A stretch of 64,000 bases of DNA, from NCBI GenBank assembly GCA_000299115.1, contig CP003801.1:186001-250000 (forward strand), given 5' to 3'. This stretch comes from an alpha proteobacterium HIMB59. Its GTDB lineage: Bacteria > Pseudomonadota > Alphaproteobacteria > HIMB59. This document shows positions 19,202 through 64,000 of this stretch, piece by piece; the stretch's first letter is position 1, and every line of letters begins with the position of its first letter. The notes beneath the pieces were generated by a model, which was not told the origin of the DNA, searched no databases, and saw nothing but the letters and a program-made list of their open reading frames with translations. The position numbers and the translations under genes were made by a program.

Positions 19202-19210
19202 TTTATTAAG

Positions 19211-19298
19211 GAGAATTACACGACCCGATATTCTATGTTACGGCTGCTTTCTTTCGAACCTGACCGGATTAGCAAAAAATACCGCCCATGTAATTCTC
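19211..19298 (-). ncRNA. ffs: Signal recognition particle RNA (4.5S type)
   Basis: On the minus strand the apical domain reads CCGGTCAGGTTCGAAAGAAAGCAGCC-like: the SRP core with the GGTTCGAAAG tetraloop region and the AGCAGCC side matching the Ffh-binding hairpin of 4.5S RNA. The two ends form a perfect 10-bp stem (19211-19220 with 19289-19298), so the RNA is about 88 nt. It lies between pheA and dnaX, a usual alphaproteobacterial position. Exact ends are inferred from the terminal stem. Confidence 0.93.
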
Positions 19299-19335
19299 GG
19301 CTTACTTTATAGCAGTTATAATATCAAATATGAAG

Positions 19336-59677: not shown

Positions 59678-60007
59678 TTAAATCAAAATTATCGGTACGA
59701 TGAATAAAATTACCAATAATAATAAAACGTCAGTTAATCGACTATAGAGTTTAACTTTGTCTGAATCAAAGTAATCCTGGTAAATTGTCACTAATCCCAG
59801 TCGAGCGTGAAAAGTGGCAGCGAAAAAAAATAGGATCATTAAAAATTTAACAAACAAATTATTTAAAGAGTTAAGCATTATCACTTGGGATGACTCAAGA
59901 TTGTTTAAAAAAAAGAAAACAAACCAATAGCTAGTAGGAACTAAAATGATTGCAGAGACCCTTTGCCAATACCATTTAGAAGATCCCTTCACTAAAAAAT
60001 GCTCCAA
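59678..60007 (-). CDS. sdhD: Succinate dehydrogenase membrane anchor subunit D
   Basis: A 109-residue anchor with three membrane helices. The alphaproteobacterial pattern is clear: WYWQRVSAIILVP at the start and the heme-ligand/quinone region FHARLGLVTIYQDYF (about residues 65-79). It overlaps the end of sdhC by 16 bp and precedes sdhA directly. Confidence 0.93.
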   Translation of the reverse strand: MEHFLVKGSSKWYWQRVSAIILVPTSYWFVFFFLNNLESSQVIMLNSLNNLFVKFLMILFFFAATFHARLGLVTIYQDYFDSDKVKLYSRLTDVLLLLVILFIVPIILI

Positions 60008-60363
60008 GCAAAAATTACTGTCATGATTAAATTAATGATGAGAATACAATATGAGATTAAGTAAACTTGGTTTAATTCCATACCTTTAGCAAAGGTCCAT
60101 AAAAAATACTTGAGTCCATTTAATAGATGATGATTAAGCGCAAAAAACCAAAAGATAAAAACTAGTTTTATAAGGGTGAAGTTAAAAAATACTGACAAAG
60201 ACTCAAAGAGAGTTGGGGCAAAATAAGAAGACCCTATCCAAAAAGCTAAAAAGGGAAGTGATGCTGCAAAGATAATTCCTGATATTCGATGCGTAATTGA
60301 AAAAACCATCGTTAACACTGGTTTATGGATTTGTAGATGGGGCGATAATGGTGAGGTCGTCAT
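59992..60363 (-). CDS. sdhC: Succinate dehydrogenase cytochrome b556 subunit
   Basis: A 123-residue anchor with three helices. SITHRISGIIFA carries the His-Arg-x-Ser-Gly signature, and NHHLLNGLKYFLW the heme-ligand His; the second His of the E. coli pattern (GIRH) is Tyr here. It is the first gene of sdhCDAB-mdh-sucA-sucB. A TATATT box ends 9 bases before the ATG with no ribosome-binding site, so a leaderless transcript is possible. Confidence 0.93.
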   Translation of the reverse strand: MTTSPLSPHLQIHKPVLTMVFSITHRISGIIFAASLPFLAFWIGSSYFAPTLFESLSVFFNFTLIKLVFIFWFFALNHHLLNGLKYFLWTFAKGMELNQVYLISYCILIINLIMTVIFAWSIF

Positions 60364-60409: not shown

Positions 60410-60493
60410 TTTCATCGATTAATGCATTTTATCAATAATTACATCTTGTGGAAAAAATGTGAGTTAATTTTAGCTAGTCAAATTATTTTGAAT

Positions 60494-60521
60494 CTTAATT
60501 TTCATCAAAATTAGCTATGAT
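60494..60521 (+). promoter_or_regulatory. Putative promoter of the 60527 structured RNA, with inverted repeat
   Basis: TATGAT (60516-60521) would be the -10, placing transcription start near 60527-60528, just where the terminal RNA stem begins. CTTAAT (60494-60499) at 16 bp is a weak -35. A perfect inverted repeat TAATTTT-CATC-AAAATTA (60496-60513) fills the spacer and could be an operator. Confidence 0.4.
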
Positions 60522-60526
60522 CATAT

Positions 60527-60623
60527 TAGGTCGAGAACCGGAACTTCTTGTTTCAAGGGTGCCGAATCTCACCCCGCATGAGAAAAACTTTGTATTTACT
60601 ATAAAGTTTGGCGCCCCGACCTA
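60527..60623 (+). ncRNA. Candidate structured RNA of unknown family
   Basis: The ~97-nt segment folds into nested stems by eye. The outer stem is TAGGTCG (60527-60533) with CGACCTA (60617-60623), and directly inside is GGGTGCC (60557-60563) with GGCGCCC (60610-60616). Within these are a hairpin TCTCA/TGAGA and a hairpin AAACTTT/AAAGTTT, and a small AGAA/TTCT hairpin lies in the 5' arm. It is the most GC-rich part of the 307-bp gap between sdhC and dctQ. Motifs of TPP, glycine, cobalamin, FMN, purine and SAM riboswitches, tRNA and SRP were not found. A separate promoter for dctQ lies downstream, so it may be an independent small RNA rather than a leader. Confidence 0.5.
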
Positions 60624-60634
60624 CTTTTACCTAT

Positions 60635-60661
60635 TTGATATCAAAAACTACTGTATATAAT
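60635..60661 (+). promoter_or_regulatory. Putative dctQ promoter (leaderless layout)
   Basis: TTGATA (60635-60640) and TATAAT (60656-60661) are separated by 15 bp, and the -10 ends 9 bases before the dctQ ATG, with no ribosome-binding site between. The 18 bases from TATAAT through ATG closely resemble those before the permease operon at 36093. Confidence 0.5.
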
Positions 60662-60670
60662 TCTCGCTTA

Positions 60671-61183
60671 ATGTCGGCCTTAGCTCAGATCTCTAAATTT
60701 CTTGATCGAATAAATACCTATATAGGCTATCTATGTGGTTTTTTTGCATTCTCAATGGTCATTATCGTATTTACGGTTGTGGTGTTGAGGTATGGATTTA
60801 GCATCGGTTTTATCTGGATGCAGGAGATCTACGTTTGGCTTCACAGTTTTATCTTTATGCTCGGTAGTGGCTTTACTTATTTGGCCAATGAACATGTGCG
60901 TATTGATGTGTTTTATCGAGATGCCTCAGAGAAGTATAAAGCGACGGTCGATCTCTTAGGAAATATTTTCTTATTAATTCCATTTTTGTACATCATATGG
61001 AAATTTAGCTATCCTTTTGTTTATCGATCTTTTTTAATGAGTGAGGTTTCCAGGGAAGCTGGAGGAATGCCTGCTTTATATATTTTAAAAAGTGCAATCC
61101 TTTGGTTTTGCATAGTATTATTTATCCAGATCATTTCTAATATTTGTAAATCTATAATTTCTTTATCAGGGTCTAAAACATGA
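60671..61183 (+). CDS. dctQ: TRAP transporter small permease (DctQ)
   Basis: A 170-residue DctQ subunit with four membrane segments; the conserved IWMQEIYVWLHSFIFMLGSGFTYLANEHVRIDVFYR stretch spans about residues 42-77 and matches the family. I chose ATG 60671; an in-frame TTG at 60608 would add 21 atypical residues read from the end of the structured RNA. It overlaps dctM by 4 bp. With DctM it forms the Na+-coupled membrane part of a TRAP importer. Confidence 0.92.
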   Translation: MSALAQISKFLDRINTYIGYLCGFFAFSMVIIVFTVVVLRYGFSIGFIWMQEIYVWLHSFIFMLGSGFTYLANEHVRIDVFYRDASEKYKATVDLLGNIFLLIPFLYIIWKFSYPFVYRSFLMSEVSREAGGMPALYILKSAILWFCIVLFIQIISNICKSIISLSGSKT

Positions 61184-62556
61184 TCACACCAGAAATTCTT
61201 GCCATTGTAATGTTTCTAACAACCCTAGGGTTATTGCTCTTCGGTTTTCCAGTTGCATTTACGCTAGCAGGTTCTGCCTTGTTATTTGGTTTTCTTGGTG
61301 ATGCTTTAGAAATTTTCAATTTTAGAATGATTGGTTTCTTCCCTCAAAGAATATTTGGAACCATGATTAACGAACCGCTCGTGGCCGTTCCTCTTTTTAT
61401 ATTTATGGGAATTATGTTGGAAAAAACAAAAATTGCCGCGGGGCTTCTTCAATCTATTGGTGAGCTTTTTGGTTCAACCAAGGGTGGTCTTGGAATAGGT
61501 GTTGTGATTGTCGGAATGTTGCTTGCTGCATCTACGGGAATTGTTGGGGCAACCGTAGTTACCATGGGAATGCTCTCTTTGCCCTCTATGATTAAGGCAG
61601 GATATGATCAAAAGATTGCAACTGGTACTATTTGTGCGGCTGGCACTCTTGGTCAAATTATTCCTCCCTCGATTGTCCTTGTTTTATTAGCAACAATCCT
61701 TCAAGGAGCGAATGAAGAAGCTGCATTATTAAAAGGAGATCTTGCCCCTGACCCTGTCACAGCAATTGATCTTTTTGCAGGTGCTTTATTACCAGGGCTA
61801 ATGCTGGTGGTGATGTTTATTATCTTCATTTATTTTTATGCAAGAATTTTTCCTAACTCTTGTCCGCCAATACAAACTGAAAGAACGAGAAGTGAAATAT
61901 ATAAAGAAGCCTTCAAATCAATTTTCCCGCCCCTAATACTGATAGTTCTTGTTTTAGGATCGATTTTAATGGGTATTGCTACTCCAACAGAGTCTGCTTC
62001 CGTTGGTGCTATCGGAGCTGCAATTATAGCTTTTACTAAAGGGGAATTGACCTTTCAAAATTTAAAAGAGGTTTCTCTTAATACCGTTAAACTTAGTTCT
62101 TTTGTTTTTGTCATCTTAATTGGTGCATCAATGTTCTCTTTAGTTTTCAGGGGTTTTAACGGTGATGCTATGATCGAACACTTTTTAGGTAGCTTACCAG
62201 GTGGTTTATTCACAGCCCTGTTAATTGTGATGGTAGCTATCTTTATTTTAGGATTTTTCTTAGATTACATTGAAATTATTTTTGTGATTGTTCCTTTAGT
62301 AGGTCCAATTTTAATCGCAAATGGTGCGGATCCTTTATGGCTTGGGATACTCATTTCGCTGAATCTTCAAACAAGCTTCCTAACACCACCTTTTGGCTTT
62401 TCTTTATTTTTCTTACGAGGGGTTGCCCCGAAAGAAATCCAAACCAGAAATATTTATAGAGGAGTTATGCCGTACATTGGCATTCAAGTATTAGCTATCA
62501 TAATCGTAGCTATTTTCCCAAGTATCGCTACTTGGCTTCCGAACTTGATGTTTTAG
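61180..62556 (+). CDS. dctM: TRAP transporter large permease (DctM)
   Basis: A 458-residue DctM protein with about 12 membrane segments and two repeated halves: LLLFGFPVAFTLAG, PLFIFMGIMLEKTKIAAGLL, AASTGIVGATVVTMGMLSLP, GTLGQIIPPSIVLVLLA, and the second-half TPTESASVGAIGA and LQTSFLTPPFGFSLFFLRG. It is on the long side of the family because of a loop near residue 185-200. Convergent with the phosphodiesterase gene, 17 bp apart. Confidence 0.95.
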   Translation: MITPEILAIVMFLTTLGLLLFGFPVAFTLAGSALLFGFLGDALEIFNFRMIGFFPQRIFGTMINEPLVAVPLFIFMGIMLEKTKIAAGLLQSIGELFGSTKGGLGIGVVIVGMLLAASTGIVGATVVTMGMLSLPSMIKAGYDQKIATGTICAAGTLGQIIPPSIVLVLLATILQGANEEAALLKGDLAPDPVTAIDLFAGALLPGLMLVVMFIIFIYFYARIFPNSCPPIQTERTRSEIYKEAFKSIFPPLILIVLVLGSILMGIATPTESASVGAIGAAIIAFTKGELTFQNLKEVSLNTVKLSSFVFVILIGASMFSLVFRGFNGDAMIEHFLGSLPGGLFTALLIVMVAIFILGFFLDYIEIIFVIVPLVGPILIANGADPLWLGILISLNLQTSFLTPPFGFSLFFLRGVAPKEIQTRNIYRGVMPYIGIQVLAIIIVAIFPSIATWLPNLMF

Positions 62557-63549: not shown

Positions 63550-64000
63550 TTAAGCTGTTGGGAAGCTGAATGGGAAGTTTCTCGCTCTGAGATATTCTTT
63601 TTCAGACACACCTGTCCAGCGAATGATCGAAGATCTGAACTTCACAATGTGTGAGAATAGCTCTGAGGAAGTCGCATCTTTACTTGCGATTTCTTGAACT
63701 ACTTCACCTGCTCTTTGACCTAGTGCATTCATCACATCATCTGGCAATTGTCTCATTTGAACACCATGCTCGTTGATGAGTTTTTGATATGAACTATCAT
63801 TCACAGCTTGGAAGTGAGATAACACCTCCATGTTCACTGCTTTTGAAGCAAGAGTGATCAGCTGACGAGTAGAGTCATCTAACTTTTCCCACTCAAACAT
63901 ATCAATAGAACAATCAAGGATAGTTGCAGGCTCATGCCAACCAGGATTATAGTAATACTTTGCAGCTTGATACAAACCAGCACCTAAGTCAGCGGCTGGG
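63550..64000 (-). CDS. TRAP transporter solute-binding subunit (DctP/TakP-like), 5' truncated by window edge
   Basis: The last ~150 residues of a TRAP binding protein; the frame stays open to base 64000 (upstream residues read PAADLGAGLYQ). The YYYNPGWHEP motif followed by ILDCSIDMFEWEKLD, and later NFPFSFP, fits the TakP-type group, several of whose members bind 2-oxoacids. The rest of the gene lies beyond the window. It converges with dctQM around the phosphodiesterase gene and is the likely partner of those membrane subunits. Confidence 0.9.
   Translation of the reverse strand, partial: PAADLGAGLYQAAKYYYNPGWHEPATILDCSIDMFEWEKLDDSTRQLITLASKAVNMEVLSHFQAVNDSSYQKLINEHGVQMRQLPDDVMNALGQRAGEVVQEIASKDATSSELFSHIVKFRSSIIRWTGVSEKEYLRARNFPFSFPTA

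Follow-up and report, generated by a model that had tools for sequence, protein, structure and literature searches.

In Caulobacter crescentus, CrfA sponges four alpha-R8 sRNAs (SisA-D) with the core UUUCCUCCCU, and the alpha-R8 sRNAs repress their targets via an anti-Shine-Dalgarno signature (PMC12559287). Other candidate RNAs have been found in marine bacteria via comparative genomics (Meyer 2009, PMC2704228; Weinberg 2010, PMC2864571), and the marine alphaproteobacterial candidates in Rfam are like the RNA described here (RNA1) in being lineage-restricted and structured. However, neither RNA1 nor its homologues matched any Rfam model (Rfam 15, cmscan at the gathering threshold, RNA1 and 12 homologous loci), and at a permissive threshold RNA1 gave only chance matches to miRNAs and snoRNAs. 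The terms TRAP, dct, sdh and HIMB59 are absent from Meyer 2009 (PMC2704228). Metabolite riboswitches that precede transporter genes also resemble RNA1, in their position before a transporter operon and in having a conserved core with variable peripheral stems. RNA1 differs from them in its single context, an intervening promoter, the lack of any expression platform seen in the sequence and the lack of a match to any Rfam riboswitch. The initial annotation, which was made from the sequence alone, had likewise seen no known riboswitch signature.

RNA1 lies between sdhC and the TRAP genes dctQ and dctM in the window (the whole 64,000 nt stretch of HIMB59 DNA that was analysed), which is part of a single-contig genome of 1,410,127 bp. 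The small SRP RNA was found by Rfam, as expected, at 19206-19300 of the window (minus strand). The features of the locus, in window coordinates, are:

59992-60363, minus strand: sdhC, the divergent neighbour, in a conserved locus order
60516-60521, plus strand: predicted -10 box (TATGAT) of the RNA1 promoter, with a predicted transcription start at about 60528
60527-60623, plus strand: RNA1, structured RNA (z -5.57; covariation over 26 distinct sequences; matched once per genus genome by covariance model R1)
60527-60533, plus strand: 5′ strand of P1 (TAGGTCG), partner 60617-60623; compensatory C-G to U-A and partner changes, with AGGUUA/UAACCU in L127/L091
60540-60554, plus strand: P2 hairpin (GGAAC-uucuu-GUUUC), which folds; 16 two-sided events, hand-aligned
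60557-60563, plus strand: 5′ strand of P3 (GGGTGCC), partner 60610-60616; double changes between UA and CG, and from GC to AU (twice), on the tree
60567-60583, plus strand: P4 hairpin (TCTCA-CCCCGCA-TGAGA), nearly invariant; loop (60572-60578) identical in 26 of 26 distinct sequences; proposed pairing seed
60586-60608, plus strand: P5 hairpin (AACTTTGTA-tttac-TATAAAGTT); 97% of cells paired, 3 double changes
60610-60623, plus strand: 3′ strands of P3 (60610-60616) and P1 (60617-60623), a continuous GGCGCCCCGACCTA
60634-60661, plus strand: separate dctQ promoter (TTTGAT-16-TATAAT); the dctQ ATG, at 60671, lies 9 nt further on
60671-61183, plus strand: dctQ, TRAP small permease (Pfam PF04290)
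61180-62556, plus strand: dctM (Pfam PF06808)

Fold and covariation of RNA1

The plus strand of RNA1 folds with a minimum free energy of -35.2 kcal/mol, and none of 200 dinucleotide shuffles was equally stable; the minus strand has a z-score of only -1.9. The architecture, P1[P2, P3[P4, P5]], consists of two three-way junctions in series. Both of the stacked 7 bp stems described in the initial annotation (P1 and P3) are found at the coordinates given there, and the hairpins it placed inside them exist, but they number three (P2, P4 and P5) rather than two.

An alignment of the 26 distinct RNA1 sequences was made one helix at a time, and parsimony on a dctQ and sdhC tree gave the number of pair changes. 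All helices together show 24 two-sided changes between standard pairs, against a null mean of 2.3. P2 was registered by hand, so its 16 events are biased towards structure, but the helices without P2 still show 8 double events against 0.93 expected, and the gap-free P1 and P3 show 5 against 0.48; in neither case were any of 2000 simulations as high. For P5, 19 of 2000 simulations reached its three double changes. As the homologues were partly gathered by their P4 motif, the covariance model search is the less biased test of P4 conservation. The G-U pairs of the helices are valid on the plus strand only. RNA1 is a real, functional structured RNA, with helices maintained by covariation.

The length of RNA1 is about 97 nt in HIMB59 and 83-134 nt in its relatives. 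P2 is a 10 bp helix with extra hairpins in one clade (G013/G015/G024), and the boundary between P1 and P3 has moved by two pairs in another. The long-P2 forms (L085, L086 and L035, from G013, G024 and G015, respectively) are 130-134 nt, and in them the 5′ strand of P3 (GUGCCU) has two potential partners, the usual 3′ strand and an AGGCAC immediately following P4. This choice may constitute a conformational switch, which other lineages lack. In HIMB59 the P4 loop, CCCCGCA, needs 0.01 kcal/mol to be held open, i.e., it is freely accessible. Directly 3′ of P1 is CTTTTA, a weak and lineage-variable U-run; about one lineage in two has such a run after P1, and a terminator scan found no consistent intrinsic terminator after RNA1.

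Distribution, promoters and neighbouring genes

The relatives examined were HIMB59-type single-cell and metagenome genomes of the AEGEAN-169 clade (PMC10308909). A search with dctQ retrieved same-genus relatives, and RNA1 is present in each one whose upstream DNA is present. Covariance model R1, built from ten homologues, finds one copy per genus genome, and the core of RNA1 is single-copy in its own genome, with no paralogues. The order sdhC (divergent), RNA1, dctQ, dctM is kept in 42 of 42 genus loci, save where loci are truncated by their ends, and in the genus loci examined RNA1 always adjoins dctQ and does not occur elsewhere. Ten genus genomes without a proper match were rechecked for the locus. 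One (G008) has sdhC only in truncated form, in another (G007) the dctQM contig starts just upstream of dctQ, in a third (G152) dctM is represented by its end alone, a fourth (G030) has only a distant DctM paralogue, and neither sdhC nor a dctQM gene was found in the remainder. The locus is thus not assembled intact in these genomes.

The sister family of the same order, where dctQ lies behind a different gene (read as parC), gave no RNA1. The weak R1 matches inspected in that family resembled coding or unrelated AT-rich sequence, and those in a 385-genome sample of the class were GC-rich chance matches. A scan for the core pattern across 84,980 species, which would miss more diverged forms of RNA1, gave only HIMB59-type loci above noise, and none that was convincing outside the genus; a match in Sphingomonas (L101) was rejected because it lacked the gene context. 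Searches of viral contigs and phages were negative. As far as tested, RNA1 is a new, previously uncatalogued family limited to the HIMB59/AEGEAN-169 genus. The findings that the initial annotation had named as counting against such an RNA, namely a lack of conservation or covariation among relatives, or a match to a known Rfam family, were looked for and not encountered.

Sister-family genomes (L219, L223-L227) carry, upstream of sdhC, a different and strongly conserved non-coding block with a length of ~140 nt, which reads GUACCUUGGCAGACACUUCUC ... CGGCGGG ... GCGUUCCUCCGAAGC ... UCCGGC. Five of these loci were scanned against Rfam without a match at E-values up to 1, and the block is possibly another uncatalogued RNA.

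Of 35 distinct homologues, 32 have a TAnnnT sequence exactly 6 nt ahead of the N in the NGGTC located at the P1 base; the next best offset accounts for 15 of 35, and a -35 element is not clear. Because the -10 box is at a fixed spacing, RNA1 probably begins at the base of P1, in agreement with the start predicted at the foot of the outer stem in the initial annotation. The second promoter that it had proposed, for dctQ, is also conserved: a sequence close to TTTrAT-16-TATAmT is kept in nearly all aligned homologues although the spacer diverges, and in the long-P2 clade its distance to the ATG is greater. With its own conserved promoter 9 nt before the ATG, the dctQ mRNA is probably near-leaderless. 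In several lineages the RNA1 -10 box is preceded, at a distance of 20-30 nt, by a TTTTGAATC-like motif (~60478-60495 in the window), which is a possible regulator site in the divergent promoter region of sdhC and RNA1.

From 60671 to beyond the end of the window at 64000, the TRAP genes are split: dctQM occupies the plus strand, and the minus strand then carries a GDPD gene and a dctP of the keto-acid type. The DctP encoded just past the GDPD gene completes DctQM, and among the solute-binding proteins of known structure nearest to it are keto-acid binders (7ug8, 2hzk/2hzl).

RNA2, a candidate partner of RNA1

The complement of part of RNA1 occurs in a second conserved element of the same genome:

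G000:C1:362030-362094 (outside the window), minus strand: RNA2, flanked by an ogt-like gene and an MFS-type gene, with the promoter TTGACT-16-TAnnnT; also L228, L229-L250

The flanking genes were identified from their translations. RNA2 reads AGCAUUCAUGCGGGGGCUGAUUCGG...CACUUUCCUCCUCUA...CGAGUCAGCC, and its core of ~65 nt is nearly invariant across the genus. A promoter of the form TTGAC[AT]-N16-TAnnnT is found in 16 of 16 distinct sequences, compared to 2 of 3200 shuffles. RNA2 forms a 10 bp hairpin with U-G pairs that exist on the minus strand only, and the large loop of this hairpin holds an anti-Shine-Dalgarno stretch, UUUCCUCCUC. There is no U-tract after the hairpin and no recognisable Rho-independent terminator. 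Searches with the RNA2 model (R2) recover it from the genus but give no convincing match in the sister family, a range that agrees with that of RNA1; weak matches outside the main locus are due to chance. RNA2 has no Rfam match, and a cobalamin riboswitch or a tRNA/tmRNA was ruled out, with neither Rfam nor ARAGORN giving a match. A second copy of the RNA1 aptamer was considered, since the complementary strand reads CCGAATCnnnCCCCGCATGA, and was rejected; the promoter and the U-G pairs place RNA2 on the other strand, so its relation to RNA1 is antisense and not homologous. Judged from its sequence, RNA2 is a second uncatalogued conserved RNA of the genus.

The invariant 5′ tail of RNA2 (UCAUGCGGGG) is a perfect complement of the P4 loop and stem of RNA1 (CCCCGCAUGA), giving 10 contiguous perfect base pairs between segments that are both invariant. 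A further 7 bp block (CCGAAUC/GAUUCGG) is present in most lineages and is lost in the G013/G015/G024 clade although RNA2 is unchanged. The genome contains 20 TGCGGGG sites (the complement of the P4 loop) and 23 of the reversed control; in the absence of enrichment above this control, the other sites were rejected as RNA1 targets. Among all the TGCGGGG sites, the RNA2 tail has the best flank match to the RNA1 core (10 of 15 flanking positions), and the chance of a match as good among 19 sites is ~1%.

One coding site (L203, G000:C1:420469, minus strand), in a gene that reads like a SET-domain protein, has 9 of 15 flanking positions, nearly the score of RNA2. This match is probably due to chance, with an mRNA target being possible.

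The RNA2 tail needs 6.4 kcal/mol to open, and co-folding of RNA1 with RNA2 gains little (-2.3 to -7.5). Comparisons with RNAduplex shuffles are weak evidence because long internal loops reach low energies by chance, and covariation between RNA1 and RNA2 is absent because both pairing segments are invariant. The match gains some weight from its position, since the 5′ end of RNA2 is invariant and RNA2 is itself a conserved RNA. Given a chance level of ~1% and a coding site that scores nearly as well, RNA2 is put forward as a moderately supported candidate for the pairing partner of RNA1.

CrfA-SisA and RNA1-RNA2 are both alphaproteobacterial pairs in which one RNA is complementary to a partner bearing a UUUCCUCC anti-Shine-Dalgarno core, and CrfA-SisA is tied to carbon use, which is similar to the setting of RNA1-RNA2. 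They differ in that the G/A-rich loop of CrfA pairs with the CCUCC core itself, whereas the C-rich loop of RNA1 would pair with the 5′ tail of RNA2. The likeness between RNA1 and CrfA would thus be one of role, with no sequence relation seen. Similarly, RNA2 is like the alpha-R8 sRNAs in carrying a promoter of its own and a loop in which UUUCCUCC is single-stranded, and its UUUCCUCCUC shares 8 contiguous identical letters with the alpha-R8 10-mer UUUCCUCCCU before the two diverge. However, its structure is different (a 10 bp hairpin with a large loop), no Rfam model matches it, and it has neither the Rho-independent terminator of alpha-R8 nor the FGase neighbour found in most species. The sequence of RNA2 therefore indicates a resemblance to alpha-R8, not membership.

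Possible functions of RNA1

With its own -10 box and a separate dctQ promoter, RNA1 is more likely to be an independent sRNA than a dctQ riboswitch. An independent sRNA of a new family was one of two roles suggested in the initial annotation, and the absence of an Rfam family, the strong covariation and the two conserved promoters are all in keeping with it. The reading we prefer, at somewhat less than even confidence, is that RNA1 is an independently transcribed, trans-acting sRNA with RNA2 as its likeliest partner, probably titrating or remodelling RNA2 as CrfA does SisA. Transcription would begin at the base of P1 from the promoter indicated by the conserved -10 box, and the stacked three-way junctions, a structure drawn from covariation, would expose the invariant P4 loop as an open pairing seed. 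The P4 loop and stem would then pair with the 5′ tail of RNA2, as their complementarity and shared distribution suggest. The target of titration or remodelling would probably be a translation-repressing sRNA, because RNA2 carries an anti-Shine-Dalgarno loop. An extended form, in which RNA1 is a sponge with a kissing loop that captures the RNA2 5′ tail and so couples the keto-acid-type TRAP/TCA locus to global translation control, is more speculative and, on balance, unlikely.

The other role suggested in the initial annotation was a ligand-sensing element for the TRAP genes, i.e., a cis-regulatory, riboswitch-like leader of dctQM with an invariant P4 core that binds a ligand such as a keto acid. 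In its favour, RNA1 immediately precedes dctQ in every case, at 47-60 nt from the start of the gene, and the highly conserved core within a variable scaffold is aptamer-like. Read-through into dctQ is plausible because there is no consistent terminator, and if RNA1 were a leader, the grouping of the nearby DctP with keto-acid binders would make a keto acid the first candidate ligand. The means of control are less favourable: neither sequestration of a Shine-Dalgarno sequence nor a terminator/antiterminator alternative is seen in the sequence, and the conserved promoter between RNA1 and dctQ would bypass RNA1. Moreover, the sister family carries dctQM without RNA1, and RNA1 is restricted to a single copy per genome and one gene context. 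A leader function is a serious alternative but a rather doubtful one.

A stand-alone RNA that binds a protein or forms an RNP, with the invariance of P4 due to protein contact and the match to RNA2 accidental, would explain why the P4 stem and loop are both nearly invariant, beyond the needs of a pairing seed alone. It would also suit the universal presence of RNA1 in the genus, and the ~1% chance of an equally good complement among the sites leaves room for accident. Set against this, a genus-only range is narrow for a housekeeping RNP, and the fully open, C/G-rich P4 loop is suited to pairing, so we consider an RNP improbable. Finally, it is very hard to sustain that the fold is a by-product of sequence kept for promoter DNA, a binding site or a small ORF, with no functional RNA, since although at least two promoters are packed into this short intergenic stretch, the two-sided pair changes on the tree far exceed the null and the G-U pairs hold on one strand only.

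Members of HIMB59/AEGEAN-169 are abundant, streamlined ocean bacteria that, like SAR11, have few protein regulators. RNA1 and RNA2 add two new RNA families for annotation, together with a testable base-pairing prediction, and the complementarity of the RNA1 P4 loop to RNA2 suggests an undescribed RNA-on-RNA regulatory circuit. If true, the occurrence of a universal, covarying RNA with a promoter of its own and a candidate partner would mean that streamlined genomes keep dedicated sRNA circuits beside their carbon-uptake genes.
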